The translations under genes were made by a program, and so were the position numbers. Positions 11,639-26,427 of a stretch of 64,000 nt of DNA are shown here, in pieces. How positions within the stretch are numbered: position 1 is the first letter of the stretch; each line of letters starts with the position of its first letter. Source of the DNA: Microbacterium sp. LWH3-1.2. Its GTDB lineage: Bacteria > Actinomycetota > Actinomycetes > Actinomycetales > Microbacteriaceae. The notes under the pieces are model-generated. The model was not told the DNA's origin and ran no database searches. It worked only from the letters and a program-made list of their open reading frames with translations. The stretch is taken from assembly GCF_040675855.1 (NCBI RefSeq), contig NZ_JBEGIK010000001.1:3844001-3908000 (forward strand), written 5' to 3'.

Positions 11639-11677
11639 TGTAGCAGGAGCGGGGCTTGAACCCGCGACCTCACGATT
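11639..11677. repeat. Left attachment repeat (39 bp, tRNA-Met 3' half copy)
   Basis: The 39 bp are identical to 26389-26427. They carry the tRNA-Met 3' end, T-arm and half of the anticodon stem, then diverge. The integrase stop codon is 40 bp away. The copy cannot make a tRNA. Confidence 0.93.
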
Positions 11678-11716
11678 CTCAACCGGTGTATCCCTGTGAC
11701 TCCCGGTTCTCCTCGT

Positions 11717-12940
11717 TTATCCCGCCTGATCAGCCCGGAACGCACCCGGACGTTCCCGATTCTTCCCTCTGATTGGCGATACCGCTCGTTGATTCCGATG
11801 GGTAGGAGATGGATCGTCGCCCATCGCTTCAAGCCGGTCGCGGACGTCCGGGGCGAGTGTCGTGCGCGGGAGGTAGTGGGCTTTGGTCACCCGGGAGTCG
11901 GCATGTCCCAGCAGTCCCGCTGCGAGCTCCGGGTCCTCGACGAGCGCGGCCGCCGTCTTGCGGAACACGTGAGGGTGGACCCACTCGTAGCCCGCGCGCT
12001 TCTTGAACGTATCCCAGCCCTTGCGGAAGTTGTTCGGATCTCGGACCTTGCCTCGCGCGGATGGGAACACGAGATCCTCGTGACTGGGGTCGGCTGCGCG
12101 CTCGCGCAGCACTCGGACGACGAATCCGGGCAGCGGAATCTCACGGCGTGACGCGGTTCGCTTCGGGTGCGGCTGAATCAGCATGCCGCTCCCTTTCACG
12201 AAGATCGCGGTGGTGTGGATCAAGACCGTTGGCAAGTCAGCATCGAGATTCAGATCCGACCACCGCAGCGACATGGCTTCGCCGATACGCGCGCTCGTGC
12301 CGAGCATGAAGTCAACGCCGTGAGGGATGTCTCGCGCAATCGCGTCCTCGTCGGCGTACAGGTGCGTGCGCATGAGCTGCACGTCTTCAAGCGTAAGCGC
12401 CTCGACGTCTTTCGTCTCAACTCGCACCGGCGCGACGTCACGGATTGGGTTGGCCTCGAGCGCGCCGAGGCGGGTCGCGAGGCCGAGCACCCCAGAGAGG
12501 ACGGTCTTCGCGTGCTTGGCCGCGGACGGGCCGTGCGACTCGGCTGTGAGCTTGAGAAATCGGTCACAGCGCGCGACTGTCACTTCCCTGAGGGCGAGCA
12601 TTCCAACGCCGGGGAGAACCATGAGGTCAAGAACCTCGCGGTAGCGCCGCTCAGTGTTGTAGGCCTTCGCCCCCATGATCTCGTCGGCGAACCACTGCTC
12701 GGCGACCGCCTTGAGCCGAGTATCACCGGAGATGTCGTCGCCGTGGACCTTCGCTCGCTCGACGAGAGCTTCCTTCAGTGCGTTCTCGGCCTTCGCCCCT
12801 GTTGCCCCGGTCCGCTCCACGATTCGCGTTACCCCGTCGTAGTCCCGGAAACGGGCGTACGCCACCCAGTGCTTGGGCCCCACTTCGTTTCGGCGTATGC
12901 GCCCCCACGTCCCGATTGGCAGCGGCGGACGGGCCATCAT
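11717..12940 (-). CDS. int: Tyrosine-type site-specific integrase of the tRNA-Met element
   Basis: The product is 407 residues. An N-terminal Arg-rich arm-binding part (WVAYARFRDYDG) and an SAM-like core-binding domain (about 75-180) precede the catalytic domain. That domain has Arg in TSARIGEAMSLRW, Lys in HPKRTASRREIPL, HPHVFRKTAA (HxxR), the His in LLGHADSRVT and the nucleophile Tyr in AHYLPR, all in place. The gene reads toward and ends next to the left attachment repeat, so it should catalyse integration and excision at tRNA-Met. Its ATG overlaps the stop of the repressor gene by 4 nt, so int is expressed from the repressor transcript. Confidence 0.95.
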   Translation of the reverse strand: MMARPPLPIGTWGRIRRNEVGPKHWVAYARFRDYDGVTRIVERTGATGAKAENALKEALVERAKVHGDDISGDTRLKAVAEQWFADEIMGAKAYNTERRYREVLDLMVLPGVGMLALREVTVARCDRFLKLTAESHGPSAAKHAKTVLSGVLGLATRLGALEANPIRDVAPVRVETKDVEALTLEDVQLMRTHLYADEDAIARDIPHGVDFMLGTSARIGEAMSLRWSDLNLDADLPTVLIHTTAIFVKGSGMLIQPHPKRTASRREIPLPGFVVRVLRERAADPSHEDLVFPSARGKVRDPNNFRKGWDTFKKRAGYEWVHPHVFRKTAAALVEDPELAAGLLGHADSRVTKAHYLPRTTLAPDVRDRLEAMGDDPSPTHRNQRAVSPIRGKNRERPGAFRADQAG

Positions 12941-13365
12941 TGCCCCGCTTCATCGGTGCTTGCGGCGAGGAGCGGAATCAGGTTGCCGGTGGCGTCGACC
13001 GCAACCACCGTGGGCTCGCCACGGCGCGTCTCGTACGAGTACCCCTCCCCGTGCGCAACACGAGCAAGCGCCTCCTCCAGCAGCTCGGACGTCGAGAAGT
13101 CGTTCAGAGCGTATGCACGGGGCGGTGTGGTCGGCAGATCAAGCTCGTCCTCGTCGAGGTAGCCAGCTGCGACCAAGGCCTGCACTGGGCTCAACTCGAA
13201 CGCGCGTGCGTATGCAACCACCTGGCGAGGTTTCGGATCCACGGCTCCAGCCCTCCATCGGCCGACGGTGGCCGGATCGACACCAATCCGCTCGGCGATG
13301 ACAGCGTTGTACGCACCTGCGGAGGTTGCGTCGATGTAGTGGCTCCAGGAGGTCTTGTCGGGCAT
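12937..13365 (-). CDS. CI-like repressor of the element (HTH)
   Basis: The product is 142 residues. Residues 14-60 form a helix-turn-helix (AYNAVIAERIGVDPATVGRW and PKPRQVVAYARAF) of the lambda-repressor class. The C-terminal part is not a LexA-type autoprotease; no Ser-Lys dyad is seen. It is transcribed leftward from a promoter that overlaps the 26-bp palindrome at 13382 and starts without a leader (TACGCT, 7 nt, ATG). It overlaps int by 4 nt. It probably binds the TTGCAT-type operators between itself and the rightward gene and sets lysogeny or maintenance. How it is inactivated is not visible. Confidence 0.8.
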   Translation of the reverse strand: MPDKTSWSHYIDATSAGAYNAVIAERIGVDPATVGRWRAGAVDPKPRQVVAYARAFELSPVQALVAAGYLDEDELDLPTTPPRAYALNDFSTSELLEEALARVAHGEGYSYETRRGEPTVVAVDATGNLIPLLAASTDEAGQ

Positions 13366-13372
13366 GACGGTC

Positions 13373-13401
13373 AGCGTAGCGAGCTACTTGCATGCATGCA
13401 A
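13373..13401 (-). promoter_or_regulatory. Leftward promoter of the repressor-integrase unit
   Basis: On the minus strand TTGCAT (-35, 13401-13396), a 17-bp spacer and TACGCT (-10, 13378-13373) are followed after 7 nt by the repressor ATG at 13365, so the transcript should be leaderless. The -35 box lies inside the 26-bp palindrome. Confidence 0.7.
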
Positions 13402-13407
13402 GTAGCT
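13382..13407. promoter_or_regulatory. 26-bp perfect palindromic operator
   Basis: AGCTACTTGCATG and its exact complement form a 26-bp perfect palindrome, which contains two TTGCAT half-sites. It covers the -35 box of the leftward promoter, so binding would shut the repressor-integrase unit (autoregulation, or control by the rightward HTH protein). Confidence 0.75.
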
Positions 13408-13427
13408 TGCACGGCAGTCGTAGGAGA

Positions 13428-13445
13428 GATTGCAGGAATGCAATC
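13428..13445. promoter_or_regulatory. Second operator, spaced palindrome
   Basis: GATTGCA, 4 bp, TGCAATC. It shares the TTGCA half-site with the 26-bp palindrome and lies just upstream of the rightward -35 box. Two more TTGCAT or ATGCAA half-sites flank it (13450 and 13485). Confidence 0.65.
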
Positions 13446-13449
13446 CAAC

Positions 13450-13478
13450 TTGCATCACATCAATCCTCTAACTACCCT
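13450..13478 (+). promoter_or_regulatory. Rightward early promoter of the element
   Basis: TTGCAT (13450-13455), a 17-bp spacer and TACCCT (13473-13478) are followed after 6 nt by the ATG at 13485, which again predicts a leaderless mRNA. The -35 box is itself an operator half-site. Confidence 0.7.
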
Positions 13479-13484
13479 GACGTC

Positions 13485-13736
13485 ATGCAATCAACTAGCA
13501 CATCGTCATCGGAAGTCCGAATCACCATCACCCGCGAGCGTCTCGAAGCCCTCAAGTCCGCGCACGGCATTGCCTCCGATCAAGAGCTTGCAGAGAAGAT
13601 CGGCGTCAACAAGGCCACGCTCTATCGTGTGCGCGAAGGGAAGACGGCGCCGTCTGCGGAGTTCCTCGCCCGCGTCGCATCCGCCTTCCCCCAGGCGTCT
13701 CTCGATCACCTCTTCACACTGGTGCGAGTTGGCTGA
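13485..13736 (+). CDS. Cro-like small HTH regulator
   Basis: The product is 83 residues. An HTH_3-like fold is clear: ITRERLEALKSAHGIASDQE, then LAEKIGVNKATLYRVREGKT and PSAEFLARVASAFP. It is divergent from the repressor and the first gene of the rightward unit. The start at 13485 is fixed by the leaderless promoter and excludes an open frame from 13392 that would cross the operators. It probably competes with the leftward repressor at the shared TTGCA sites. It overlaps the next gene by 1 nt (TGATG), so translation is coupled. Confidence 0.8.
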   Translation: MQSTSTSSSEVRITITRERLEALKSAHGIASDQELAEKIGVNKATLYRVREGKTAPSAEFLARVASAFPQASLDHLFTLVRVG

Positions 13737-13954
13737 TGCCGCGCCTACTCACGGTCGAGGACGTCGCCGAAGAACTCGGCGTCTCAGTCAAGACGATCTA
13801 TCAATGGCGATCGCGTCAGCCGGCGCCTTACGGGCCGCCGGCCATCAAGGTCGGCAAGTACTTGCGATGGCGCCCGGACGCACTTCGCGAGTGGATCGAT
13901 GCGCAGTCGTCGGAGTCGAATGTGACTCCGATTCGCCGCCGCAGCACACGCTGA
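13736..13954 (+). CDS. AlpA/MerR-type HTH protein (excisionase-like)
   Basis: The product is 72 residues. LLTVEDVAEELGVSVKTIYQWR is the winged-helix start of excisionase/AlpA-type DNA-binding proteins, and VGKYLRWRPDALREWIDA is the usual second half. In an integrated element such a protein commonly directs excision or activates late genes. It is coupled to its neighbours by 1-nt overlaps on both sides (TGATG). Confidence 0.8.
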   Translation: MPRLLTVEDVAEELGVSVKTIYQWRSRQPAPYGPPAIKVGKYLRWRPDALREWIDAQSSESNVTPIRRRSTR

Positions 13955-14736
13955 TGGGATTCAAGTCGTCGGAGTGGGCGTATGGCGACAGCGTCCCGAA
14001 GCTCACCGCGCCTGAACGCGCGGTGTTGGTCGCGCTCGCCCACTGCCGCAACGACAAGACCGGCAACTGCTATCCCGGCCAGGACTTACTCGTCAAGATG
14101 ACGGATCTATCGGAGAAGACTGTGCGACGCGCGATCGCCACACTCGAGGCTCGCCAGCCGCCGCTCATCGCTCGGACGATCCGCTTCAACGGCCGGTACC
14201 GCACCAGCGACTCGTACGAGCTGCTGTTCGACAACTACCGGTCAGAGCGACCACCGGTCACAGTGACCACTGGTCAAGATGACCACTGGTCAGAGAGTCC
14301 CTCACCACCGGTCACTGTGTCCCCGACCACCGGTCACAGTGACCACCCCATAGAGGAACAGGAAGTGGAACAGGAAGCCGGTAACAGGAAGGTCTCTCTC
14401 TCGCCTCTCACTCCTGACCTTGACGCGGAGTTCGATCGGGCGTGGGCACATTGGCCCAAGAAGGAAGACCGGAAGCGGTCACTTCTGAAGTTCAAGAGCG
14501 CCGCGAGGCGCCGTGACGTGAGCATCCTCGTCGCCGACATCATCCGGTTCGGCGACGCGTATGCCTCCGCGAGGGATCGGCAGTACACGCCGGGGCTGGC
14601 GACTTGGTTGGAGCGCGAACGGTGGACCGACGAGCTGCCGACCCGCCCGATGACGCGCACCGAGCAGAACATGGCCGTCGTCGCCGACCTCGCGGCACGT
14701 GAGGCCGAAGAGCAGCAGAGAGGACTCACCGCATGA
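13954..14736 (+). CDS. Replication initiator-like protein with origin iterons inside the gene
   Basis: The product is 260 residues. The N-terminal 95 residues form a winged HTH of the replisome-organizer type (LTAPERAVLVALAHCRNDK, CYPGQDLLVKMTDLSEKTVR, RRAIATLE). Residues 96-140 are a Pro/Thr/Val-rich low-complexity linker encoded by the iteron array at 14240-14344. The C-terminal part (EFDRAWAHWPKKEDRKRSLLKF) is a helical domain found in phage replication proteins that contact the helicase loader. The layout is that of lambda O: DNA-binding domain, origin repeats in the linker, partner-binding domain. It is followed, with a 4-nt overlap, by a loader-like gene. Confidence 0.75.
   Translation: MGFKSSEWAYGDSVPKLTAPERAVLVALAHCRNDKTGNCYPGQDLLVKMTDLSEKTVRRAIATLEARQPPLIARTIRFNGRYRTSDSYELLFDNYRSERPPVTVTTGQDDHWSESPSPPVTVSPTTGHSDHPIEEQEVEQEAGNRKVSLSPLTPDLDAEFDRAWAHWPKKEDRKRSLLKFKSAARRRDVSILVADIIRFGDAYASARDRQYTPGLATWLERERWTDELPTRPMTRTEQNMAVVADLAAREAEEQQRGLTA
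14240..14344. repeat. Iteron cluster, putative replication origin of the element
   Basis: Nine copies of GGTCA or its complement TGACC lie within 105 bp. Most belong to a longer unit ACCACYGGTCA that also forms inverted pairs such as TGACCACTGGTCA. The array is inside the initiator gene between its two domains, as in lambda-type origins. Confidence 0.65.
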
Positions 14737-15137
14737 ATAAGTCCGAAGCCGCGAAGCTCCTGACCGTCGCGTCAGGCTTCGACCGCCGCCAGGTGGACGA
14801 GCTGACCGCGACCGCCTGGGCGGCCGCCCTCGACGGTCACACGTACGCCGAGTGCGAGCGGGCGATCATCGACCACCACCGCGACCCCGCGACCCGCACG
14901 ACGTACCTCAGCGTCGGGCACGTTCTGGACCGCGTGGAGGCCGGCGCCCGAACCAGCGCCGTGGACGTCGAGACGGATGTGCGCGCGGCGAAGGCCCGCG
15001 GCATCATCCCGGGCGATTGGCCCCGCCGCGAACCACTCAGCCCCGAGGCCGCGTACCAGCTCCAGGCCGCGCGCGAACGCGACCGCCAGGAAGCGATCCG
15101 CCTCAGTGCCGGCGAACTCGAAGGACCCCGGCCATGA
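14733..15137 (+). CDS. Helicase-loader-like phage protein
   Basis: The product is 134 residues, all helical. MNKSEAAKLLTVASGFDRRQ, then TATAWAAALDGHTYAECERAI and TYLSVGHVLDRV have the form of the short N-terminal domain shared by phage helicase loader/inhibitor proteins of the G39P type (helices, Trp, then a TF/Y-hydrophobic segment). It has no Walker motif, so it would not be a DnaC-type ATPase. It directly follows the initiator gene with a 4-nt overlap, the lambda O-P order. The assignment rests on position and this weak pattern. Confidence 0.5.
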   Translation: MNKSEAAKLLTVASGFDRRQVDELTATAWAAALDGHTYAECERAIIDHHRDPATRTTYLSVGHVLDRVEAGARTSAVDVETDVRAAKARGIIPGDWPRREPLSPEAAYQLQAARERDRQEAIRLSAGELEGPRP

Positions 15138-15313
15138 ATGGTGCGCTCGCCCCTACACCTTGCGTCCGAGGCCTCAACCACCGGTGCGACAGTCTCAGCG
15201 GTTGGTGCGTACACGGCTGCGGCTATCGCAACGACGCCCCATCAGCGGCGCCGGCAGTCGTTACCGCAGTACTCGATATCACGCGAGCGCTCCGGAGCCC
15301 TCATGACGAATGA
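15134..15313 (+). CDS. Small Cys-rich protein
   Basis: The product is 59 residues. CVRGLNHRCDSLSGWCVHGC contains four Cys and one His in a compact pattern that could bind one zinc. It overlaps the upstream stop by 4 nt (ATGA) and the next gene by 11 nt, which supports translation. Such small zinc-binding proteins are common in actinophage early regions. Function unknown. Confidence 0.55.
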   Translation: MNGALAPTPCVRGLNHRCDSLSGWCVHGCGYRNDAPSAAPAVVTAVLDITRALRSPHDE

Positions 15314-15554
15314 CCCCCACACCATCACCACCGAGAGCGGCGAACTCGGCTCATCCGCCCGCCGGACCGCCGAGACCCGCGTACGCGCGGCGCTCGGACG
15401 CCTCCAGGGCTCTGAGCGCAAGATCATCCCCCTCGTGGAGGCAGCACTCACCGCACTTCACCGCGAGTGCGCCATCCGCCGCCTCGAGCTGCGCGCCGCC
15501 GAGCACGAGATTGAGAAGCTCCGCGCCACCATCGAACGCCAGAGCACCCGATAG
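15303..15554 (+). CDS. Small coiled-coil protein
   Basis: The product is 83 residues. After a polar N-terminus, residues 25-80 form a long amphipathic helix (RVRAALGRLQGSERKIIPLV, then LHRECAIRRLELRAAEHEIE). It starts inside the previous gene and ends 11 nt before the next start. I do not recognise a family. A nucleic-acid-associated accessory protein is possible. Confidence 0.55.
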   Translation: MTNDPHTITTESGELGSSARRTAETRVRAALGRLQGSERKIIPLVEAALTALHRECAIRRLELRAAEHEIEKLRATIERQSTR

Positions 15555-15565: not shown

Positions 15566-16117
15566 GTGACTTTCCATCCATCGATCAGCGCCGAACAGCG
15601 CGAACGCATCATCGAGCTGGCACGCGCCGGCGGCGCCCGCAACAAGATCGCTGCGGAAGTCGGCGTCGGCGTCGGCACCGTCTCCCGCTACGCGAAGGCC
15701 GCAGGGCTCAGCTTCGATAGGTCACGCACACGGGCCGCGACAGAGGCCGCCCGCATCGACAACGCCGCGAAGCGTGAAGCCTTGGCGATCGACGTCCTGA
15801 GCGAGGTAGCCTCCACCCTCGCGTCGATGAAGCTCTCGGGGCCGCCGACCTCGACCCGCGAGGAAGATCAACGGGCGCGAGCCGTGGCCTCGCTCAGTCG
15901 CGCAATGGGAGAAACCTTTCGAGCGTCGCCCATCGGCGATACGACTGTCGACGAGATCCGCGACGCCTTCCGGTCGTTCCGCGGGGCGCTTCACGACTCC
16001 GTGCGCCTTCGGAACATCATTCAGGCGTACGAGACGAAGTTCGGCGAGCTGTCCGCCGAGGAGCTGGAAGCCGCAGACCCGTCAGCTGACCGCTACGGGC
16101 AAGTCGACCAGGAGTAG
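15566..16117 (+). CDS. HTH protein, candidate small terminase subunit
   Basis: The product is 183 residues with GTG start. Residues 8-50 are a homeodomain-like HTH (ISAEQRERIIELARAGGARN, KIAAEVGVGVGTVSRYAKAA). The rest is helical with an acidic C-terminus (YETKFGELSAEELEAADPS). This build (HTH, oligomerising helices, acidic tail) and length match small terminase subunits. No large terminase follows. Satellites of the PICI/SaPI type often carry a lone TerS that redirects a helper phage's packaging, which is the interesting reading. A plain regulator is the alternative. The frame ends just before a GGACCGGTCC palindrome. Confidence 0.5.
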   Translation: MTFHPSISAEQRERIIELARAGGARNKIAAEVGVGVGTVSRYAKAAGLSFDRSRTRAATEAARIDNAAKREALAIDVLSEVASTLASMKLSGPPTSTREEDQRARAVASLSRAMGETFRASPIGDTTVDEIRDAFRSFRGALHDSVRLRNIIQAYETKFGELSAEELEAADPSADRYGQVDQE

Positions 16118-16176: not shown

Positions 16177-16602
16177 TCAGTCGCCTGAGTAGTTCAGATC
16201 GTCACGGACGGTGCGTCGCAGCGGCACACCCTCAGGCAAGTAGCTCGATAGCAGCTGCACGTCGAGACGCTTCAGCCCCCGCGACAAGAGGTCCAGCGCG
16301 CCGAGGTCGTGCACGAGGAAGTCAGTGACAGGGATCTCACCGTGCTCGGCGGCATAGGCATCAAGCGTCCGGCCACCAAGCTCCGCCTTGTCGACCGCGA
16401 ACAGCGTGAGGCCGTCGGACCCCTTCAGGTGGCGATGGCCGAACTCGATGCCGATGAGCTGGTAACGCTCGAGGTCCAGGCCGACCTCCCACGCCAGCTC
16501 GAACAGCGTCACGCCACCGTGGCCGTCAGCGGCCACGGTGCCCGTGAAGTCGCCGTACTGCGTGCCGGCCGGGTAAACCGGCTCGTCGGTCTCAACTGCC
16601 AT
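16177..16602 (-). CDS. Hypothetical protein on a reversed cassette
   Basis: The product is 141 residues with no family I recognise. It is soluble, rich in Gly and Leu, with an N-terminal beta-rich half (YGDFTGTVAADGHGGVTLFE) and RYQLIGIEFGHRH. The ATG at 16602 follows a GGGGGG-type ribosome-binding site. It opposes the surrounding rightward genes and is bracketed by the repeats at 16120 and 16670, as expected for an accessory (moron-type) gene expressed in the integrated state. Confidence 0.6.
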   Translation of the reverse strand: MAVETDEPVYPAGTQYGDFTGTVAADGHGGVTLFELAWEVGLDLERYQLIGIEFGHRHLKGSDGLTLFAVDKAELGGRTLDAYAAEHGEIPVTDFLVHDLGALDLLSRGLKRLDVQLLSSYLPEGVPLRRTVRDDLNYSGD

Positions 16603-16713: not shown

Positions 16714-17211
16714 TCAGAACGGCACATAGGTGGTGTTCTCTTCGCTGTCTCCGTCGAAGCTCCAGACGAGTGTCATGCCCGTTGGCGCTCCGAACGCGCG
16801 GGTGAGCGCGGCGTACTGGAACTCTTCGCCCGGCTCGAGCGTGCACGGCAGCGGCTGCATGAGCGTCAGGTAGTTCTCGGTGCCCTCGGGCTTCGTGGGA
16901 GCGGCGGAGACGGTGACCCGCCGGCCAGAGGTGTTGGTCACGGCGCGGATCTCTCCGCGCACATGTCGCGGCCCGGTCCATGGCGGCCGGCGGGTCGCTT
17001 CCGCGACGAGGGCCTCGTGTGCCTCCGCCGAACGCGCCAGCGCGTCCGCGGCACCCTCCTGCGCGGCCAATGCGCGGTTCGCGGCGTCTTCGGCCTTCCC
17101 CCGCTCAGCACGCGCCTCGTTGGCCTTGCCCCATGCGATCGCCGTAGCGACCGCTGTCGCGACCAGGAGAGCGCCGTTGATGATCAGGCTGATGACCTCG
17201 AACGCGCTCAC
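16714..17211 (-). CDS. Membrane-anchored coiled-coil protein, unknown
   Basis: The product is 165 residues. A single N-terminal membrane helix (ISLIINGALLVATAVATAIA, about 6-26) is followed by an Ala/Glu-rich coiled coil (about 27-70, KANEARAERGKAEDAANRAL) and a beta-rich C-terminal domain. It starts with GTG overlapping the upstream stop (GTGA), so it is coupled to the 17208-17393 gene. Similar anchor-coil-beta proteins occur in actinobacterial prophages without known function. Surface or exclusion roles are possible but not shown. Confidence 0.65.
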   Translation of the reverse strand: MSAFEVISLIINGALLVATAVATAIAWGKANEARAERGKAEDAANRALAAQEGAADALARSAEAHEALVAEATRRPPWTGPRHVRGEIRAVTNTSGRRVTVSAAPTKPEGTENYLTLMQPLPCTLEPGEEFQYAALTRAFGAPTGMTLVWSFDGDSEENTTYVPF

Positions 17212-17626: not shown

Positions 17627-17968
17627 ATGGCGGGGAAACGTCGACTCGGCAGTGTTGCAGACGCCGCCGCCGAGCGTGGGGTGTCGGAATCGACAGTGCG
17701 CAGCTGGATCCGCTCCGGCAGCATCCAAGCAGAGCGAGTCGGGCAGCGGCGATATGTCGTTGACCTTGACTCAGGTCCGATCGATCCCCGGCGCGAGGCT
17801 TTCGCACGAGCCCTCGCGACGATCACGGCCGACGACGTTGCCGTCATGCGCGATCTGGCGGGCCGGCTCGACGAATCGCTCGGCGGAGAACCGACGCTCT
17901 TCGCACTCGCCTGGGACGTTCTCGGGACGACATCGCGTCACTCGCACCTGACTGAGAAGGCAGCCTGA
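17627..17968 (+). CDS. MerR/HTH_17-like DNA-binding protein
   Basis: The product is 113 residues. RRLGSVADAAAERGVSESTV, then RSWIRSGSIQAERVGQRRYV is an excisionase/MerR-type winged helix at residues 5-45. A helical C-terminal part follows. The ATG at 17627 follows AAAGGAC. The 13-bp stretch CCAGCGAAAGGAC containing this site recurs before the gene at 21692. It opens the second rightward block, which contains the tape measure gene, so it may be its activator. Confidence 0.7.
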   Translation: MAGKRRLGSVADAAAERGVSESTVRSWIRSGSIQAERVGQRRYVVDLDSGPIDPRREAFARALATITADDVAVMRDLAGRLDESLGGEPTLFALAWDVLGTTSRHSHLTEKAA

Positions 17969-17970: not shown

Positions 17971-18339
17971 ATGGGTCGCGGCGCCGACATGTTCGGCATC
18001 GCCGATGCGGCTGTGGCCGACCTGTACGAGTCCACCGCGCACGAGCTGGCCTATGCGCTGGCGTCGGCTTCAGTGCGGATCGGAGAAGCCGAGACGGATC
18101 CTGTGCTCGCGAGCACCATCAACGTTCTCCTCGGTGACGGCGAACGTGGTCCGGACCAAGTCGACGTCACGCTCACTCTCGTCATCCGGCACCTCCTGCA
18201 GATGCTCCGCAACGTCGCGGCCGGGAGTGCTCACCCCGTGATCGAGAGGCTCCGCACCGACACGGACCTCACCTCCGCCAAGGCAGCGGCCATGATCCTC
18301 GACATTGAGCGGGCGCTCCGGGACGGAGTGCTGTCGTGA
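17971..18339 (+). CDS. Hypothetical protein preceding the tape measure
   Basis: The product is 122 residues, helical. It starts 2 nt after the previous stop and overlaps the tape measure start by 4 nt (GTGA). In tailed phages this position holds the tail assembly chaperones, which bind the tape measure. This gene is shorter than usual and I see no slippery frameshift site, so a chaperone role is inferred from position only. Confidence 0.5.
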   Translation: MGRGADMFGIADAAVADLYESTAHELAYALASASVRIGEAETDPVLASTINVLLGDGERGPDQVDVTLTLVIRHLLQMLRNVAAGSAHPVIERLRTDTDLTSAKAAAMILDIERALRDGVLS

Positions 18340-21300
18340 GCTTCCAGGCTGCCGAACTCGTCGCAACGATCCAGCTGGGCGGGGTCTCGACGGCGGAGCG
18401 CGACCTCAACCGGTTCAAGGGCAAGCTCGAGCAGACCGATTCGTCGGCGTCGAAGCTGTCGAAGTCGGCGGACGCCGTGTTCCGCGGCACGGCGACCGCG
18501 ATCGGTGTCGCGTCGGTGGCGGCGGCCGCGTTCGTGACGAACCTGTTCAACACCGGTGTCGCGTACAACCAGCTGCAGCAGACCTCTCGCGCCGCACTCC
18601 GCACCCTCCTGGGCGGCGCGGAGGCCGCGAACGCCCAGATGGACAAGCTCGACGCGTTCGCGAAGACGTCACCGTTCTCGAAGTCCGTCTTCATCTCCGC
18701 ACAGCAGCAGCTCATCGGGTTCGGGTTCGAGGCTCAGAAGGTCATCCCGATCCTCAACTCGGTGCAGAACGCCGTGGCGGCGGTCGGTGGCTCGAACCAA
18801 CAGATCAGCGAAATCGTCTCGATCCTCGCCAAGATCCGGTCCTCCGGGAAGCTCACCGCCGAGGACCTCAACATGCTCGGCGAGCGAGGCCTCGACGCCG
18901 CGACGCTCCTCGGACAGGGATTCGGGAAGAGCGCCGGCGAAATCCGCGAATCCATCACCAAGGGCACCCTCGACGCCGCGCAGGCCGTCGACGTGCTCGT
19001 GGCCCAGATGGACGCAAAGTTCGCGGGCGCCGCCGCGAACGTCAAGGAGACGTACGCGGGCACCGTCGACCGGATCAAGGCCGCGTCGCGCGACATCGGC
19101 GCCGCTCTCGCCGAACCGTTCGTGTCCAAGAACGGTGGCGGTCTGTTCGTCACCTGGGGCAACCAGGTCGCCGACATCATGCGCGCCGTGGAGTCCCACA
19201 CGACACCCGTCGTGAACATCCTCACCGCTCGGGCGGCGCCCGCATTCGCCGACATCACTCGGACGCTTGACCGCGCCCGCGTGCAGGTGAAGTCGTGGGA
19301 CTCGTCCCGCCTCGAGGATGGCCTGGACGCGATCGCCAGCCACGGCCCGGCCATCGCCGCGACCGCGGGCGCCGTGCTCGGCGTGAACTCCCAGCTCCTC
19401 GCGAGCATCCCGATCGTGGGCCGCTTCGCGCCGGCGTTCTCCCCGCTCGCCGGGGCGATCGGTGCCGCCGCGCTGGCGTCGCCGGAACTGCGTGCCGAGC
19501 TGGGCGCCCTGCTGGGCACGCTGAAGCCTCTGCTGCCGGTGACGGTCGACATCGCGACCGTGTTCTCGGGCGTGCTGAACGCCGCTCTGCCCATCGTCGC
19601 GGACGGCATCCAGGCGGTCGTCGCTGTCGCGGAGCCATTCGTCGACGTGCTCGAAGCGATCCCCGCGCCCGTGCTCGCCACGACCATCGCAGCCGTGGGG
19701 ATGTTCACGGCCATGCGGTCCGGCGCGCCCGCAATCCAGGGTCTCGTCGACGGCATTAAGCGGATCGCGGAGCAGGCTGCCGTGCAGGCGGCCCTCGCCG
19801 GCATGGAGGGCAACACCTCCAAGCTGGCGGGCACGTTCGGTGTTGCCGGCAAGGCTGCGACCGGGCTCGGGAACTCGCTGAAAGCCGCATTCGTCGCAAA
19901 TCCCGTCGGCTTGATCATCCTGGGTGTCTCGACGGCCGCGGCCATCCTCACCGCGACGCTGTCGGCGCAAGCGGAGGAAGCCGCGGCGGTCAAGGACCGC
20001 GTCCAGGGCTACCGCGACACGCTCGACCAGACGACCGGCGCACTCCTGCGCGCCACCCGCGCCCAGGTGGAGAAGAACCTCGCCGACAAGGACGGCAACG
20101 AGTGGGCCGCGGCGCTGGGCATCTCCAACACCGAGGCTGCGGCCGCCATCCTCAAGGGCGGCGACGCGTACGACAAGCTCATCCAGAAGCTGCGGCACAT
20201 GAAGACCGCGATGCACGAGGCGTCCGAAGAGTCGTCGGTGCTCGGCGGGATGGGGTCCGCGCGTGAGGACGCGGTCGACGATCTCATCGAGTCGTACGAG
20301 TCCGAGCGGGCTGCGATCGCCAAGGCCCAAGACGAGCTGCGCGCATACAACGAGGAGCAGCGCCGCGCGACCGCCGCGATGAGCGACCTGCAGCGTTCCA
20401 ACGACCGCATGAACGAGGCTCTGACCATCGCCCGCGATGTCACGAAGGACGCCACGGAGCGGCTGAGGGCGCTCAAGGGCGCGCTCGACGAACTCAACGG
20501 TGGAACGAAATCGCAGGCCGACTTCACCCGCGATCTCAACGAGCAGACGAACCAGCTCCGGGAGTCGTTCGCGCAGGTCGACGACGCCGGCAACCGACTC
20601 GCCCCGACCCTAGTCAGTGCGGCCGGCGCGATCGACACCACAACGGCAGCCGGCATCGCGCTCTACGATGGCGTCTCGCGCCTGAACGACGCCATGCTCG
20701 ACGAGATCCTCGCCGCCGACGCAGCGGCCAAGAAGAACGGCGAGCACGGCGTCTCGATGGACGACGCCCGCGAGATCGCCGCGAAGTATCAGGATCGGCT
20801 TCGCGGTCTGGGCGACGAGGCTGGTCTCTCTGACGAGCAGATGTCAGGGCTCATCGAGACGATGCTCGCGACGCCCGAAGTGGTTGCTTACGCGGTAGAT
20901 GACTCGGGCACGATCGATGCGCAGAAGCTGCGCCTGATCGATCTCGCCTCCCAGATCCTCGCTACCCCGGACAAGCAGTTTGAGGTCAGCAGCGACGACT
21001 TCCCTGGCCTCATGGAAGCGCTGCGTGTGCTCGGCGTGGACATCACGACGCTCCCTGACGGCACCGTGAAGGTGAAGAAGGATGACGGCACGTTCACATC
21101 CGTCGCGGATGCGCTCGCGGGGCTGACGAGGTCTCGCACGGTCACCGTGTTCTCCCAGTGGGCTGGCAGCGGACCGCCAGTCGGCACCGGAACCGTGCTG
21201 AAGCCGGACCGGGCGTTCGGTGGCCCGGTGCAGGGGCCGGGCACGAACACGTCGGACTCGATCCCCGCGAACTTGTCCAACGACGAGCATGTGTGGACGG

Positions 21301-21653
21301 CCGCGGAGACGCGCGGTGCCGGTGGTCACGGCAAGGTCGCGTACATCCGTTCGCTCGCCCGTCAGGGGCGCCTCGGGGAGATCATTCCCGGGTTCCGTGA
21401 CGGCGGTCCTGTGATCCGCGCCGACCGACTGCCGCAGACCATGCTCAGCCTCGCCCCCGCCCGGACATCCACTGCGGCCGATGTGGCGCCAGCGGTCGGC
21501 CCGGCGACGGCGGTTGCGCGCGCTGCCGCTGTCGCCCCCCGCCCAATGGATCTATCGGACGCGTCGGTGGAGGCGCTCGCACACAAGTTCGCCCGCGAGG
21601 TCGCGGCCATCGTCCGAGGCGATCAACGCCGGGGAGGCAGGACCGATGGCTGA
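18336..21653 (+). CDS. Phage tail tape measure protein
   Basis: The product is 1105 residues with GTG start. The N-terminal tape-measure domain is clear (about 30-290: FRGTATAIGVASVAAAAF, LRTLLGGAEAANAQMDKLDA, TAEDLNMLGERGLDAATLLG, LDAAQAVDVLVAQMDAKF). Hydrophobic segments follow (about 340-440 and 515-535), then an extended coiled coil (about 540-800) and a Gly-rich C-terminus with VQGPGTNTSDSIPANLSNDE, usual for these proteins. By the common scaling of about 0.15 nm per residue it would set a tail near 165 nm. No other tail, head or packaging gene is present in the element, which is the oddest feature here. The frame is intact, which argues for a retained use. Confidence 0.88.
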   Translation: MSFQAAELVATIQLGGVSTAERDLNRFKGKLEQTDSSASKLSKSADAVFRGTATAIGVASVAAAAFVTNLFNTGVAYNQLQQTSRAALRTLLGGAEAANAQMDKLDAFAKTSPFSKSVFISAQQQLIGFGFEAQKVIPILNSVQNAVAAVGGSNQQISEIVSILAKIRSSGKLTAEDLNMLGERGLDAATLLGQGFGKSAGEIRESITKGTLDAAQAVDVLVAQMDAKFAGAAANVKETYAGTVDRIKAASRDIGAALAEPFVSKNGGGLFVTWGNQVADIMRAVESHTTPVVNILTARAAPAFADITRTLDRARVQVKSWDSSRLEDGLDAIASHGPAIAATAGAVLGVNSQLLASIPIVGRFAPAFSPLAGAIGAAALASPELRAELGALLGTLKPLLPVTVDIATVFSGVLNAALPIVADGIQAVVAVAEPFVDVLEAIPAPVLATTIAAVGMFTAMRSGAPAIQGLVDGIKRIAEQAAVQAALAGMEGNTSKLAGTFGVAGKAATGLGNSLKAAFVANPVGLIILGVSTAAAILTATLSAQAEEAAAVKDRVQGYRDTLDQTTGALLRATRAQVEKNLADKDGNEWAAALGISNTEAAAAILKGGDAYDKLIQKLRHMKTAMHEASEESSVLGGMGSAREDAVDDLIESYESERAAIAKAQDELRAYNEEQRRATAAMSDLQRSNDRMNEALTIARDVTKDATERLRALKGALDELNGGTKSQADFTRDLNEQTNQLRESFAQVDDAGNRLAPTLVSAAGAIDTTTAAGIALYDGVSRLNDAMLDEILAADAAAKKNGEHGVSMDDAREIAAKYQDRLRGLGDEAGLSDEQMSGLIETMLATPEVVAYAVDDSGTIDAQKLRLIDLASQILATPDKQFEVSSDDFPGLMEALRVLGVDITTLPDGTVKVKKDDGTFTSVADALAGLTRSRTVTVFSQWAGSGPPVGTGTVLKPDRAFGGPVQGPGTNTSDSIPANLSNDEHVWTAAETRGAGGHGKVAYIRSLARQGRLGEIIPGFRDGGPVIRADRLPQTMLSLAPARTSTAADVAPAVGPATAVARAAAVAPRPMDLSDASVEALAHKFAREVAAIVRGDQRRGGRTDG

Positions 21654-21691: not shown

Positions 21692-22354
21692 ATGACTGAG
21701 CCAGGACCGCGCGATCGAACAGCTCCGCGCGGAGTACAGAGAGGGAAAAGGGCTATGACCGAAGCACTGGACCGAGTGGCGGAGCTCGAGCGGGCGGCGA
21801 TCGCCGGCGAGGAGGTATCGGCCAGCGAGCTTGCCGCGGCCCGTGAAGAGGCGCGGATCGCAGAGCTTGCCGCGCGCGGCCGGCGCGAGCGGGATGCCGC
21901 CGACGGCGCCCGCCGACAGCAGGAGGCGGTGGCGCAGGCGAAGCGCGATGTTGCTGCGATGCTCGGCGGCGGGGTCACGGACGTGCTGTTGCCGCAGTAC
22001 GACGCGGCCGTGCGAGCGCTCGCCGATCTCATGGCGGCGGCCGAAGCGTGGAACGAGAAGCTGCAGTCCGCGGCACAGCAGTTCGATCAGGCCGGCATCC
22101 CGTCGCGCAGCGTGTTCCACGCAGCCCCTGAGGACCTCGACAAGCGGAACTACGTCTACTGGGACGGCGGCTATCAGGTTCAGTCGCTCACCGTCGACGG
22201 CAACGGCCACGTGCCCGCACAGCCGGCGCAGTGGGTGCTCGCGGCCATCCGCGAGACCGCGCGGCAGACTGGCGGCCTCTCGATGAACTACCACCCGAAC
22301 ATCGAGAACCAGCTGCGCGGCGACGACCCCTCCCAGCTCCGGGACCGCACGTGA
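21692..22354 (+). CDS. Hypothetical helical protein after the tape measure
   Basis: The product is 220 residues. Residues 25-95 are a charged coiled coil (ALDRVAELERAAIAGEEVSA). The C-terminal half has more globular character (YWDGGYQVQSLTVDGNGHVP, NYHPNIENQLRGDDPSQ). The start at 21692 has AAAGGAC upstream, within the 13-bp block shared with 17608. An ATG at 21758 is an alternative. It is not a recognisable distal tail, minor tail or lysis protein. Confidence 0.55.
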   Translation: MTEPGPRDRTAPRGVQRGKRAMTEALDRVAELERAAIAGEEVSASELAAAREEARIAELAARGRRERDAADGARRQQEAVAQAKRDVAAMLGGGVTDVLLPQYDAAVRALADLMAAAEAWNEKLQSAAQQFDQAGIPSRSVFHAAPEDLDKRNYVYWDGGYQVQSLTVDGNGHVPAQPAQWVLAAIRETARQTGGLSMNYHPNIENQLRGDDPSQLRDRT

Positions 22355-22608
22355 GCGCGGCACAGTCCGAGTACCTCGCCCCGCAGCTCGATCCCAGCCC
22401 ACCGAGGCCCGAGCTGCCGTCCTCCGACCCGCGCGAAGAGCTGGCGCGAGCCGAGAGGGATTACGGCGCGCTCCTGGACCTCTACGAGCGCCGCAACCCG
22501 GCCTCTGGGCCACGGAGCCGCTGGGCCGTCTCTGCCGAGCGGTACGCGCTCGCCAGGGCCCGCCTGGACGCCGCCCGCCGAGCCGTGGATCACCTCGGCA
22601 GGGTCTGA
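22351..22608 (+). CDS. Small helical protein
   Basis: The product is 85 residues. It begins with GTG overlapping the upstream stop by 4 nt. A Pro-rich N-terminus (LDPSPPRPELPSSDP) leads into one long helix (EELARAERDYGALLDLYERR). It ends 2 nt before the WhiB start. No family recognised. Confidence 0.55.
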   Translation: MSAAQSEYLAPQLDPSPPRPELPSSDPREELARAERDYGALLDLYERRNPASGPRSRWAVSAERYALARARLDAARRAVDHLGRV

Positions 22609-22610: not shown

Positions 22611-22898
22611 ATGTCCGGAGCGGATGAGCGCGCTGCGGCGTCCTACGGGGCGCTCAACGCGGCTCTCGCCGACACCACCCCGCCATGTAGCGGCGACCCG
22701 AGATTCATCCTGGAGCCTCACGAGATCGCCCCGGCGGAACTCATGCACCTGCGCGGCTCGATCTGTTTCCCATGCCCGCTCCGGTCACTCTGCGCCGCGT
22801 ACGCGGAAGAGGCGTGGCCGCCCGCCGGCATCTGGGCCGGACGGATGTACCGAATCGGTTCGCGCCGGCCAGTAGCACCCGCGCCCACCGACGAATGA
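22611..22898 (+). CDS. WhiB-family iron-sulfur transcription factor
   Basis: The product is 95 residues. Four Cys are spaced as in WhiB proteins (C in PPCSGD, then CFPCPLRSLC), followed by the PAGIWAGRMY turn (GVWGG-like). These residues bind a 4Fe-4S cluster, and the family partners with the main sigma factor in actinobacteria. Phage- and element-borne WhiB proteins can shut host whiB genes or drive element genes. It ends the rightward block, 75 bp before the Fic gene, which has its own promoter. The C-terminal basic tail is short. Confidence 0.85.
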   Translation: MSGADERAAASYGALNAALADTTPPCSGDPRFILEPHEIAPAELMHLRGSICFPCPLRSLCAAYAEEAWPPAGIWAGRMYRIGSRRPVAPAPTDE

Positions 22899-22973: not shown

Positions 22974-24215
22974 ATGCCCACCACATCCACGCGCGCCTTC
23001 GAAACGTCCCACCCGTGGATCACGTTCACGTTCGAGACGCGAGCGTTGAGCGAGATCGTCTGGGCCCACCTCGGTGAGTCCTACTCCAAGTGTCAGCACC
23101 TGATCGGCGCGCCCCTGCAGCCCCGTGTCGCTTGGGATCTCGCCCGCGTGTACATGCGGCGCGGCGCGCTGGCGTCTGCCGCCATCGAGGGCAACACGTT
23201 GAGCGAAGACGAAGTCAACGACATCCTCGACAACGACCATCGGCTGCCGGAGTCCCAGCAGTACCTCGAGCAAGAGGTTCGCAACGTTCTCGCTGCGCTG
23301 CGCAGCGTCCGCAACGAGGTGTGGGAACTCGATGGCTCCTTCCGACTCACCCCGGACTGGATCCTCGGCAAGCACGCGCAGCTGATGACCGATCTCGACG
23401 TCGCCGACCACGTAAACCCCGGAGCGTACCGAGACGTTCCAATCGTTGTCGGTCCGTACCGCGGCGTGCCCGCCGAGGACGTCCCTTATCTGATGGAGGA
23501 ACTCTGCAAGTGGATCAACAGCATCCTCGATGACGCCGGGTCCAAGCGCCACCGGACACCAGATCAGGCGTTCTTCCTCGTCTTCTTCGCCGCGACCCTC
23601 GCGCACTTGTACCTCGCGTGGATCCACCCCTTCGGTGACGGCAACGGACGAACGGCGCGTCTCATCGAGTGCGCGATCCTTGCACATTGCGGACTCGTGC
23701 CATGGGTCAGCACCAACCTCCTGTCCGACTACTACAACCGCACCCGCACGAAGTACTACGAGCGACTTGACGCGGCATCGCGGCAGGGCGACGTCGCCGG
23801 ATTCATCGCATACAGCGCACTCGGCTATCGCGACCAGTTGCGCGAACAGATCAAGACCGTCCAGGCGCATCAGCGAATGGTGGCGTGGATCAACTACGTC
23901 CATGAGGCGTTCCAGCACGAGCCATCAACGGACACGGCCCGTCGTCGCCGTTCGGTCGTGCTGGCGATGCCTGACGGCAAGCAGCTGACGCGTAAGCAGA
24001 TCCGCTACCTGACGCCCGCAATCTCAGAGATGTACGACGGCACCTCAGACCGGTTGTTCCGCCGCGACATGTCGAAGCTGATCGAGCTGCAGCTGATCGA
24101 AGAGACCACCCCGGGTCGATACGAGTCCAGCATCTGGCGGATGGATGCGTTCACCCCACGACCGGAGTTCGGCGCCTTCGCGCCCGTCTTGGAGCGACTG
24201 CCTGGCGACGAGTGA
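22974..24215 (+). CDS. fic: Fic-domain adenylyltransferase-type protein
   Basis: The product is 413 residues. The Fic active-site motif HPFGDGNGRTAR (218-229) is complete, with His218 as base, so it should transfer a nucleotide monophosphate (usually AMP) to a target hydroxyl. The class II inhibitory helix motif SAAIEGN (68-74, Glu72) lies in the N-terminal Fic_N domain, so the enzyme is likely held inactive in cis. A C-terminal winged-helix-like part (RKQIRYLTPAISEMYD, RRDMSKLIELQLIEETTPG) suggests DNA binding or oligomerisation. It has its own leaderless promoter. It could be a phage-resistance or stress factor. The target is unknown. Confidence 0.92.
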   Translation: MPTTSTRAFETSHPWITFTFETRALSEIVWAHLGESYSKCQHLIGAPLQPRVAWDLARVYMRRGALASAAIEGNTLSEDEVNDILDNDHRLPESQQYLEQEVRNVLAALRSVRNEVWELDGSFRLTPDWILGKHAQLMTDLDVADHVNPGAYRDVPIVVGPYRGVPAEDVPYLMEELCKWINSILDDAGSKRHRTPDQAFFLVFFAATLAHLYLAWIHPFGDGNGRTARLIECAILAHCGLVPWVSTNLLSDYYNRTRTKYYERLDAASRQGDVAGFIAYSALGYRDQLREQIKTVQAHQRMVAWINYVHEAFQHEPSTDTARRRRSVVLAMPDGKQLTRKQIRYLTPAISEMYDGTSDRLFRRDMSKLIELQLIEETTPGRYESSIWRMDAFTPRPEFGAFAPVLERLPGDE

Positions 24216-24263: not shown

Positions 24264-24449
24264 ATGGGGAATCAGATCGATCTCGTGGGGCCAATCATCG
24301 CCGCCATCATGGCGCTACCTGGCGTGCTGATCGAGGCGTACGCCGCCAATCCGGGCCCGTGGAACCAGGTCGGCTTGATGATGCTCGGACTCGTGTTGCT
24401 GGGGTGGCTGGCATCACGAGTCCCGCGACGTCGAGGGCGCCCGCGCTAG
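24264..24449 (+). CDS. Small membrane protein
   Basis: The product is 61 residues with two predicted membrane segments (LVGPIIAAIMALPGVLIEAY and QVGLMMLGLVLLGWLAS) and a basic tail RVPRRRGRPR. TACGCT at 24252-24257 lies 6 nt before the ATG, which suggests a leaderless transcript. It follows fic by 48 bp. It may be a phage-exclusion or toxin-type peptide, or a partner of Fic. This is not resolvable from sequence. Confidence 0.55.
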   Translation: MGNQIDLVGPIIAAIMALPGVLIEAYAANPGPWNQVGLMMLGLVLLGWLASRVPRRRGRPR

Positions 24450-24802
24450 GACTGGATTAGGGTCTTCGAGACCCACGGCCACGTCGTCGTTCCAAGCAAG
24501 CTCAGGGCCTCGCTACGCGGCGGATAGGTCTCGGTTCGCCCAACAGCGGTCAGGTGCCGGGCGCTCTCGCTCAGCATCTCGGTGACCACAATGCACGCCT
24601 CGCACGCGGGTAGGTCCCGTGACGCCGCGTTGCCGGCGGAGGCCTCGTCAGCGGAAGCGACGACACGGCGCACGGCGAGCTCGCACAGGCTGCGTTGACT
24701 CGGAAGCCAGATGTGGCGGAGGTCTGGCACGGTGGGCGTGGTGACGTGCGCGACAGCCAGCTGAGGCGCGTGAGCCGGTTGAGGCATTGCCATGGCATGC
24801 AT
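24446..24802 (-). CDS. Hypothetical protein
   Basis: The product is up to 118 residues (starts at 24802, 24793 or 24787 are possible). It contains LCELAVRRVVASADEASAGN and LPACEACIVVTEMLSESARH, with three Cys that might bind a metal. It converges with the small membrane protein gene and follows the 24822-25325 gene by about 20 nt. No family recognised and no clear ribosome-binding site. Confidence 0.45.
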   Translation of the reverse strand: MHAMAMPQPAHAPQLAVAHVTTPTVPDLRHIWLPSQRSLCELAVRRVVASADEASAGNAASRDLPACEACIVVTEMLSESARHLTAVGRTETYPPRSEALSLLGTTTWPWVSKTLIQS

Positions 24803-24821
24803 GCTACGGGTACGAACCGCG

Positions 24822-25325
24822 TCAGAGTGGGTCCGGGACGATGCCGCCGACGAGTTGCCAGTGCTGCACAAGGTCGTCACTCACGGGTGCCGCCAGCTCG
24901 TCAGCGGCCTCCTCATCGGCTTCCTCGATGGACGCTTCAAGCGATTCAGCGACGCCTCGATCAATCTCCCTGCTGCGCTCGTTGTGCCCCGGGCCCAGAT
25001 GCTCGAGGTACTCCTCGACCATCTTGACTTGCGGAAGCTCGCGGTACTTGGCTGTCCGAATCGCGTTGTCGGCCGCAAGCGCCCGCAGCTCGGCGGGGCG
25101 TTGCATCGGTACGACGTGGCGGGCATCGACAACGATGCCGCCGGTCGCGGCCAGCCCATACCGCAGCGCGACGCGCACGTCGTCCGCGTTGGCCGGGCGG
25201 CTCGCTGCCTCCCACCAGTCGGCTGGGCCGAGATCCTTGCCGTGAGCGCGCGCTAGATCCAGGAGCGTCTGGTTGACGTCACCGGTCCAGGAGAGCTGGC
25301 CGGACGGCTTCACGAAGTAGAGCAA
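24822..25325 (-). CDS. Hypothetical protein
   Basis: The product is 167 residues. It starts with TTG at 25325, supported by GAGGA 6-7 nt upstream. It is mixed alpha/beta in the N-terminal half (YGLAATGGIVVDARHVVPMQ) with a very acidic helix near the end (SLEASIEEADEEAADELAAP). Heads a leftward pair. I do not recognise a family; the context is the accessory end of the element. Confidence 0.55.
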   Translation of the reverse strand: MLYFVKPSGQLSWTGDVNQTLLDLARAHGKDLGPADWWEAASRPANADDVRVALRYGLAATGGIVVDARHVVPMQRPAELRALAADNAIRTAKYRELPQVKMVEEYLEHLGPGHNERSREIDRGVAESLEASIEEADEEAADELAAPVSDDLVQHWQLVGGIVPDPL

Positions 25326-25433
25326 GCGCGTTCCTCACGGAGCAGGGTGAACAGGGACTCAACAACGCATCGTAAGGCTCAGCCGGCACCGCCTCAGTCC
25401 GTACACGCGGTTCTCACGCGACATGATGTTGGG

Positions 25434-25613
25434 ATGACGACAAGGGAACAGGCTCTCCGAGAGCTGGGGCGGGTAGTGGCTCAGACGCACGCGATCACGT
25501 CCAAGCTCACCCCGCTCGAAGCCGCGCAGCGCGCCTGGCATCCGGGCGGCCCATCCGTCGAAGTACTCGCCGAACGGATCGCGCAGAACAGGGCGGCACG
25601 ACGTGGACGCTGA
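25434..25613 (+). CDS. Small hypothetical protein
   Basis: The product is 59 residues, MTTREQALRELGRVVAQTHA, then LTPLEAAQRAWHPGGPSVEV. CATGAT lies 6 nt before the ATG, so it may be leaderless. It overlaps the next small gene by 11 nt in another frame, which supports both. Function unknown. Confidence 0.55.
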   Translation: MTTREQALRELGRVVAQTHAITSKLTPLEAAQRAWHPGGPSVEVLAERIAQNRAARRGR

Positions 25614-25764
25614 CGACCACCTCGCGTACGCGCGACGGTACCTCGCCGAGGGTGCGGTAGCTGACCTCGCAACGGGTAGCAGGCGGTCGAAGGCGCTGCA
25701 CGCGGCGGCGGCCATGCTCAACTACATCAGAGCGAATCTCTTCACTCGGTGTCGTCGAGTGTGA
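25603..25764 (+). CDS. Very small hypothetical protein
   Basis: The product is 53 residues with GTG start. VDADDHLAYARRYLAEGAVA and SKALHAAAAMLNYIRANLF form two helices with a good codon pattern. Translationally coupled to the preceding gene. Its 3' end overlaps the convergent gene at 25742 by 23 nt. No family recognised. Confidence 0.45.
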   Translation: MDADDHLAYARRYLAEGAVADLATGSRRSKALHAAAAMLNYIRANLFTRCRRV

Positions 25765-26239
25765 TGACCATGTCACTCCCACGGTCGGGATGATAGGACC
25801 ACTCGATGGTGATCCCGTCCCAGGACTCTGTCTGCCGGCCGTCCATCGACGTCGTCTGACCGATGTGCGAATCGACACTTGCCGGGACATCGAGCGCAGC
25901 GAGAATGCACGCCTGCTGTTCGTAGGTCGCACCACCGAGGTCGTCCTCACCCTTGACGTCGATGACGAGTGTGCGGTCCTCGTCTCCCAGTTCCATGCCG
26001 GTGCTGCCGCAGTCGTCGACGGCGTCGGCAAGGCGCATATCCACGGCTGCCTCGGCGGCAGTGGCAGCCGCGGCTTGGTTCACACCTGTCACCACTGCCC
26101 CCACCCCGAGCGTTCCCAGCACGCCGACGACTAGCCCCCCGAGCCCCGCAAGCGCGATCCACAGCGGAGCCTTCGAACTCGCCTGCGGTGTCGCAGTCTC
26201 AATCGGCGCGGGCGTATCGGTGAGCGGTTCATTCCCCAT
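25742..26239 (-). CDS. Membrane-anchored hypothetical protein
   Basis: The product is 165 residues. A short cytoplasmic part (about 1-30) and one membrane helix (WIALAGLGGLVVGVLGTLGV) precede an exported acidic domain with two Cys that could pair. On the minus strand TAGGCT lies 7 nt before the ATG at 26239, so the transcript should be leaderless. The longer frame to 26293 is therefore rejected. It is the last gene before the right attachment site, expressed inward. It could act at the surface, for example in exclusion. This is a guess from position. Confidence 0.6.
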   Translation of the reverse strand: MGNEPLTDTPAPIETATPQASSKAPLWIALAGLGGLVVGVLGTLGVGAVVTGVNQAAAATAAEAAVDMRLADAVDDCGSTGMELGDEDRTLVIDVKGEDDLGGATYEQQACILAALDVPASVDSHIGQTTSMDGRQTESWDGITIEWSYHPDRGSDMVITLDDTE

Positions 26240-26350
26240 GACCCGGAGCCTATCGCCTGGCATGCAGGCGGTCTGCCCGCGCTGGGTGCTCATGATCCTG
26301 AGCCCGCGCTTGGTGACGACTCACCGAGCTGAAAGCGATGGGTAACCGAT

Positions 26351-26380
26351 GGGAGCCGGTCTCCGAAGAGGCCGACTCCC
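26351..26380 (-). terminator. Element-supplied hairpin downstream of tRNA-Met
   Basis: A 13-bp stem with one mismatch and a TTCG tetraloop lies 11 bp beyond the tRNA 3' end. It may replace the original terminator that was moved to 11613. It lacks a U-run. Confidence 0.45.
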
Positions 26381-26388
26381 TAGTGTTT

Positions 26389-26427
26389 TGTAGCAGGAGC
26401 GGGGCTTGAACCCGCGACCTCACGATT
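26389..26427. repeat. Right attachment repeat within tRNA-Met
   Basis: The 39-bp copy identical to 11639-11677. It runs from 2 bp beyond the tRNA 3' end into the anticodon stem, so insertion leaves the tRNA intact. Confidence 0.93.

Follow-up and report, generated by a model that had tools for sequence, protein, structure and literature searches.

A probable phage satellite with its own tail tape measure gene in Microbacterium

A compact element integrated in tRNA-Met

We analysed a 64,000-nt stretch of DNA (the window) from the genome of Microbacterium sp. LWH3-1.2 (3.94 Mb, two contigs). Positions 11639-26427 hold a 14.8-kb element integrated in tRNA-Met, with genes for integration, regulation and replication, a protein resembling the small terminase subunit (TerS) and a tail tape measure protein (TMP). 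An earlier note, made from the sequence alone, had read this element as a phage satellite akin to phage-inducible chromosomal islands (PICIs). Our comparisons support that reading, as compact relatives exist and no matching full prophage was found. We consider it probable that the element is a satellite which uses its own TerS to redirect packaging and its own TMP to make chimeric tails.

The element lies between two exact 39-nt repeats of the tRNA-Met 3' end (11639-11677 and 26389-26427), the right copy overlapping the intact tRNA-Met gene (26390-26464, minus strand). The joined flanks, a query of 406 bases, matched unbroken through the junction in at least 20 of 34 same-genus genomes among the matches listed (own genome excluded; 58 genomes were searched in all). 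A match was counted if it began at or before query base 80 and ended at or after base 320, and the part left of the junction was short, roughly 30-77 nt.

Twenty proteins called from the open reading frames (ORFs) were scanned against PHROGs and Pfam. At the left end, a tyrosine integrase of 407 amino acids (aa) (11717-12940, minus strand; phrog_1, 6.8e-43; PF00589) and a 142-aa repressor (12937-13365, minus strand; phrog_5301, 4.3e-19) diverge from an 83-aa Cro-like helix-turn-helix (HTH) protein (13485-13736, plus strand; phrog_3642, 2.2e-20) and a 72-aa excisionase-like (Xis-like) HTH_17 protein (13736-13954, plus strand; phrog_66, 2.9e-13; PF12728). These are followed by a 260-aa replication initiator, Rep (13954-14736, plus strand; phrog_270, 9.6e-25), and six iterons (14234-14346) lie within the rep gene, the copies of their core ACYACYGGTC at 14234-14335. 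The TerS-like protein, g183 (183 aa), is encoded at 15566-16117 on the plus strand and ends in a YGQV motif.

The TMP gene (18336-21653, plus strand) encodes 1105 aa and matched Pfam TMP_3 (PF20155, 4.8e-21) and many PHROG tape-measure profiles. It is preceded on the same strand by h113, a 113-aa HTH protein (17627-17968; PF12728, 2.6e-6) kept in three Microbacterium elements, and by g122, an element-specific protein of 122 aa (17971-18339) whose gene overlaps the TMP start by 4 nt at its 3' end. Downstream, again on the plus strand, lie g220 (220 aa; 21692-22354), a WhiB-like protein (22611-22898; phrog_9926, 3.6e-8; Pfam score of 22.8 bits, slightly below the cut-off of 23.6) and a 413-aa Fic protein of the SoFic defence family (22974-24215; PF02661, 5.2e-16; PADLOC SoFic, 4.3e-56).

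No convincing match to the large terminase subunit (TerL), portal, head, tail-tube, baseplate or lysis proteins was found among the 20 proteins. There were near misses: short HTH proteins weakly matched TerS profiles, TMP matched an endolysin profile (3.8e-17, below better tape-measure matches), a 61-aa protein a virion-protein profile (0.12) and a 165-aa protein a holin-like toxin (0.18). The earlier note is therefore borne out on the exact attachment repeats in tRNA-Met, the integrase and switch, the initiator with iterons, the element's own TMP, WhiB and Fic genes, and the missing terL, structural and lysis genes.

Related elements and an exchanged tape measure gene

Searching with TMP as query returned 74 loci (22 from genomes, 52 from IMG/VR), 58 of them with a complete TMP ORF. 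Ten of the 58 lacked the chosen phage structural clusters. Three of these were set aside, namely L020 and L023 (ORFs of 396 and 240 aa) and L054 (a 6.7-kb contig), and L002, L003, L006, L010, L011, L016 and L017 were kept.

L002 is an element of Microbacterium sp. SA39 and L003 of Microbacterium sp. Leaf151. Both have h113, g122, TMP and WhiB in common with the window element, to which L002 adds g183, and L003 adds g220, Fic and part of Rep. Identity to the window proteins was 56% (L002) and 37% (L003) for h113, 42% and 37% for g122, 50% and 42% for WhiB, and, in L003, 48% for Fic and 36% over 154 aa for g220, which lies downstream of TMP there too. The order h113-g122-TMP is identical in the three elements, at three sites in three strains, with WhiB upstream of h113 in L002 and L003 and downstream of TMP in the window element. 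The left end of L002 falls at a tRNA-Ser 3' end (4034). A 33-nt repeat of it with 91% identity has its end at 16478, while the last 20 nt of tRNA-Ser alone recur exactly at 16335, giving an element of 12.3-12.4 kb with repeats of its own at 7602-7705. The boundaries of L003 are set by 14 nt from the 3' end of what we take to be yajQ, and the element runs from 4013 to about 18340 (14.3 kb). Because two other Microbacterium strains carry elements of 12.4 and 14.3 kb at other sites with the same core order, the window element belongs to a family and is not a single wreck. Compact relatives, whose absence elsewhere the earlier note would have taken as a refutation, thus exist.

Nine further proteins of L002 and L003 gave no structural PHROG match. 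Near the right end of L003, the reverse strand holds a decayed C-terminal fragment of TerL with one stop (18029-18214), perhaps a scar of past prophages.

The remaining small elements are more varied. L006, from Leifsonia aquatica, spans 9.1 kb between exact 39-nt repeats (1466-10559) and combines TMP with a major head protein of HK97 type (phrog_10, 6.3e-42) and two proteins resembling integrases; no further structural gene appeared among the four non-TMP proteins scanned, a subset of its proteins. It is the only scanned relative with a capsid gene. TMP is paired with a TerS of phrog_1496, a family other than that of g183, in L017 (Leucobacter, 7.5e-16) and L016 (M. commune, 3.1e-24). Other scanned proteins of these further elements gave replication, integrase or no matches. 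Attachment repeats were looked for in L010, L011, L016 and L017 and none were found; L011 and L016 reach contig ends.

The TMP itself is closely related to those of phages. It is 67% identical to the TMP of L025, a 53-kb siphophage, and the TMPs of L024, L025, L027 and L033 are 59-67% identical to it over the best tblastn segment and 58-66% over the alignment. Lengths are 1095-1123 aa in these four phages and 1107 and 1117 aa, as called, in the other two elements. L027 is a siphophage by its portal, major head and major tail profiles, and a like prophage, L095, with a TMP of 1107 aa, is present in another genome of the genus. Within the genus, seven of 366 genomes, own included, contain a TMP relative (E<=1e-15). 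A sequence search of the PDB with TMP found no relative. The gene reads without a stop in all three Microbacterium elements, and the nonsynonymous rate was below the synonymous rate (dN < dS) in five comparisons.

We built a quick tree of 47 rows, from which 16 TMPs were omitted as cut, seven as duplicates and five as shorter than 800 aa, and a careful tree of 12 rows; L095 is in neither. The L003 TMP paired with that of phage L024 in both trees (100/100). The L002 TMP grouped with L027 and L033 in both trees, at a support of 88/93, short of the program's star, in the 12-row tree, and the window TMP fell near L025 with no firm sister. A single clade of the three Microbacterium element TMPs was rejected by 201 log-likelihood units (approximately unbiased (AU) test, p-AU 1.2e-6), the constrained clade having been chosen after the quick tree was seen. 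Sliding identity varied along the protein. L003 and L024 shared the last two windows at 62-67%, with all others under 30%, and L002 shared the first window with L027 and L033 at 80%, where the window TMP stood at 69%. On these identities the TMPs are mosaics. We conclude that the TMP gene has moved between the elements and phages, while h113 and g122 stayed; the tree gives no direction for the transfer.

The position of g122 beside tmp is that of a chaperone. As a candidate for the usual tail chaperone it was rejected, since comparing its profile with that of the gene preceding TMP, taken from eight phages, gave a probability of 0.2. Its AlphaFold model is of low confidence (predicted local distance difference test (pLDDT) 57.5).

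Packaging, candidate helpers and the satellite reading

Single-linkage clustering placed g183 with proteins encoded directly upstream of TerL in L007, L012, L022 and L066. The downstream TerL belongs to phrog_2 in L012, and in L038 TerL is fused to the next gene as called. The candidate helpers L024, L025, L027 and L033 (IMG/VR records) all encode a TerS of about 159 aa directly upstream of TerL (4/4), and g183 matched a profile of these proteins with a probability of 78 (E 1.8e-5, few sequences). DTYGQV stands near the end of TerS in all four phages, and g183 ends in DRYGQVDQE. Five aligned g183 relatives carry YGTV (L002), YGQV (P0007 and P0008), YGQA (P0009) and YGRE (P0010). A looser form of the motif occurred in three of 1368 called proteins, a set without the helpers' TerS: two were element TerS and one was unrelated. 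Because this C-terminal motif is common to g183 and the candidate helpers' TerS, we predict that it is a tail which docks on TerL. The possible lone TerS of the earlier note is thus a candidate, favoured by clustering, motif and a weak profile match and not by its structural model, with no TerL among the scanned proteins. The TerS of phage G20c was considered as a fold relative and not counted (Foldseek E 0.84; template modelling (TM) score 0.18). A sequence search of the PDB gave weak matches only, several of them to HTH proteins. A second g183-like protein lies in the SA39 genome (L086:10902-18394), near another integrase-like gene, and possibly marks another small element.

The four phages, with the prophage L095 from one genome, are candidates for the helper with a similar TMP or TerS that the earlier note had suggested looking for; none was found resident. 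Two further signs link elements to particular phages. A 42-nt hairpin of L002 (14995-15036) has an identical copy in phage L033, where it separates the minor-head gene from the one that follows, and recurs at 95% in L095 and 87% in L027; L024 and L025 yielded no copy. A scan of IMG/VR for the hairpin pattern gave three contigs: besides the L027 and L033 contigs, one of 17 kb. The window contains no hairpin of this type, and there was no Rfam match. The TMP of L002 likewise groups with those of L027 and L033, and we read the hairpin as a possible sign of helper matching. L003 similarly has a 147-nt stretch (76%) in common with the contig of L024, its TMP partner. A small protein in this stretch recurs in the window (59 aa; 25434-25613, plus strand; absent from the list of the earlier note) and in L020, and its relative on the L024 contig sits near a repressor-like gene. 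We tentatively propose, while holding it to be somewhat doubtful, that TMP is a replaceable part which matches the satellite to its helper. The satellites would retain h113, g122 and WhiB as a lasting core and repeatedly take up a new ruler gene, in L002 together with the hairpin, from the phage lineage currently exploited, and TMP kinship would reveal the helper.

The satellite reading implies the following course. On infection by a siphophage like L024, L025, L027 or L033, or on induction of such a phage, the element would excise and replicate from its own Rep and iterons. The helper terminase would package its DNA, with g183 selecting satellite DNA and docking on the helper TerL through the shared motif. 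Heads, tail tube, tip and lysis functions would come from the helper, because such genes are absent from the element. The element TMP would replace that of the helper, so that the tail would be chimeric, unchanged in length, and equipped with the element's own ruler and ejected protein, a step for which experiment exists only in Vibrio PLEs (phage-inducible chromosomal island-like elements). SoFic and the reverse-strand genes would be cargo.

Several observations weigh against this course. Helper, induction, excision, packaging and transfer are inferred. No candidate helper is known to infect this host, and the own genome, with no second TMP_3 and no phrog_2 TerL, revealed no resident one. The g183 model (mean pLDDT 68.9; HTH and long helices) returned nothing from Foldseek at E<=0.001, and few sequences underlie the profile match of g183. 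In L003 no TerS was recognised, and the decayed TerL fragment lies at its right end. Occupying the chaperone place with no similarity to the TMP-upstream gene of the phages, g122 leaves the element with no chaperone identified. Close relatives are also rare: g122 occurs in three of 366 genus genomes (own included), in 398 family genomes as its own copy and one weak match (7e-4), and among 5.8 billion proteins in five matches, itself included.

The TMP could instead be a decoy, an extra or mismatched ruler that spoils the tail assembly of incoming phages as a defence cargo beside Fic. A SoFic gene does lie downstream in the window element and in L003, and tail assembly is a known defence target in the accessible text of PMC11364771. 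A decoy, however, need not be full length or retain a phage-type C-terminus, as L003 does with L024, and the element TMPs closely match those of phages in length and are paired in small elements with TerS and replication genes. We regard this explanation as unlikely. Decay of a prophage whose structural block was deleted would account for the TerL fragment of L003 and for the phage-like regulators, with relatives on the L027 contig for both the repressor (35%, 1e-13) and the Cro-like protein (31%, 1e-8); besides TMP, the only other match to the remaining candidate contigs at 1e-3 was the 141-aa protein to that of L024 (0.001). We think it very improbable, given a core common to three elements at different sites, a TMP without stops in 3/3 of them and the finding of no g122 relative in IMG/VR. 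The full prophage matching all but a structural block, which the earlier note had allowed for, did not turn up either. The L025 contig, about 99% covered by three pieces, matched the other 19 proteins of the element at E<=0.1 only through the TerS HTH (0.004) and a stray g220 match (0.038). Least credible to us is an integrative element of plasmid type that spreads by another route and acquired TMP as a passenger. Plasmids, too, can have an integrase, Rep and iterons, but the 20 scanned proteins include no relaxase or transfer profile, a search of 72,556 plasmid records by megablast alone found nothing nearly identical, and TMP recurs with TerS genes.

Known satellites and remaining genes

PICIs such as the Staphylococcus aureus pathogenicity islands (SaPIs) integrate site-specifically and have a divergent switch, Rep with iterons, a lone TerS and a size of about 15 kb. 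The window element, integrated and without a full structural set as satellites generally are, resembles them in its integrase, divergent regulators, Rep with origin repeats, putative lone TerS and size, a likeness of features. It differs in its structural tail gene and its actinobacterial host. Capsid-forming PICIs (cf-PICIs) encode capsid, portal and terminase according to the accessible text of PMC10690885; only a TerS-like protein of this set was recognised among the scanned proteins here. The same text describes the Streptomyces satellites MulchRoom and MiniFlayer, likewise actinobacterial, as having terminase and capsid genes and no replication genes, and contains no word starting with 'tape'. 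Our literature search, with preprints and most subscription papers outside its reach, found no actinobacterial satellite with a tape measure.

The earlier note knew of no described satellite that combines its own TMP with WhiB and Fic. A satellite with its own TMP is, however, no longer new, as the accessible part of Mathur et al. (2026; PMC12987554) reports that a TMP encoded by a Vibrio cholerae PLE enters chimeric tails and is needed for efficient transfer. The TMP of PLE11 is 20% identical to that of its helper, and the tails are about 10 nm shorter; tmp genes are also predicted in PLE-like elements and some cf-PICIs, a likeness to the present element (PMC12987554, same part). PLEs are V. 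cholerae elements parasitising ICP1, whereas the host and nearest elements here are Microbacterium, and the TMP is of siphophage type, 58-67% identical to those of four candidate helpers and nearly equal in length. Further differences are the TerS-like protein, the TMP exchange seen with phages, and tac, which was not found here. Compared with known chimeric-tail satellites, the exchange and the TerS and TMP pairing are new. If the satellite reading is true, such satellites extend from Vibrio PLEs to actinobacteria and siphophages, the pairing suggests that it arose more than once, the helper of a satellite can be guessed from its TMP, and why satellites bring their own ruler becomes testable in soil bacteria.

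The other genes of the element are small. A 134-aa protein adjoining Rep (14733-15137, plus strand; phrog_37378, 5.6e-7, function unknown) is by position perhaps a loader. Proteins of 83 aa (15303-15554), 85 aa (22351-22608) and 61 aa (24264-24449), all on the plus strand, are ORFs only, the last with no significant match in PHROGs or Pfam. Possible cargo is encoded on the minus strand, as proteins of 141 aa (16177-16602; phrog_28692, 1.1e-5, function unknown), 165 aa (16714-17211; phrog_20680, 0.001, function unknown), 167 aa (24822-25325; no significant PHROG or Pfam match) and 183 aa (25742-26293; no PHROG or Pfam match).

Insertions near the same tRNA-Met site in three related genomes (L109, L110 and L111) were considered as elements of the same kind and rejected, as these genomes have no TMP match at 1e-15. 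Other insertions are marked in L109 and L110 by second, att-like copies at a distance of 14-16 kb from this tRNA-Met; one of these insertions, judged by eye, has defence-like and Rep-like genes. Just outside the left repeat of the window element, an ORF at 11231-11557 (STKSGQSRQVPIL) resembles an integrase remnant by eye and is perhaps the scar of an older element.

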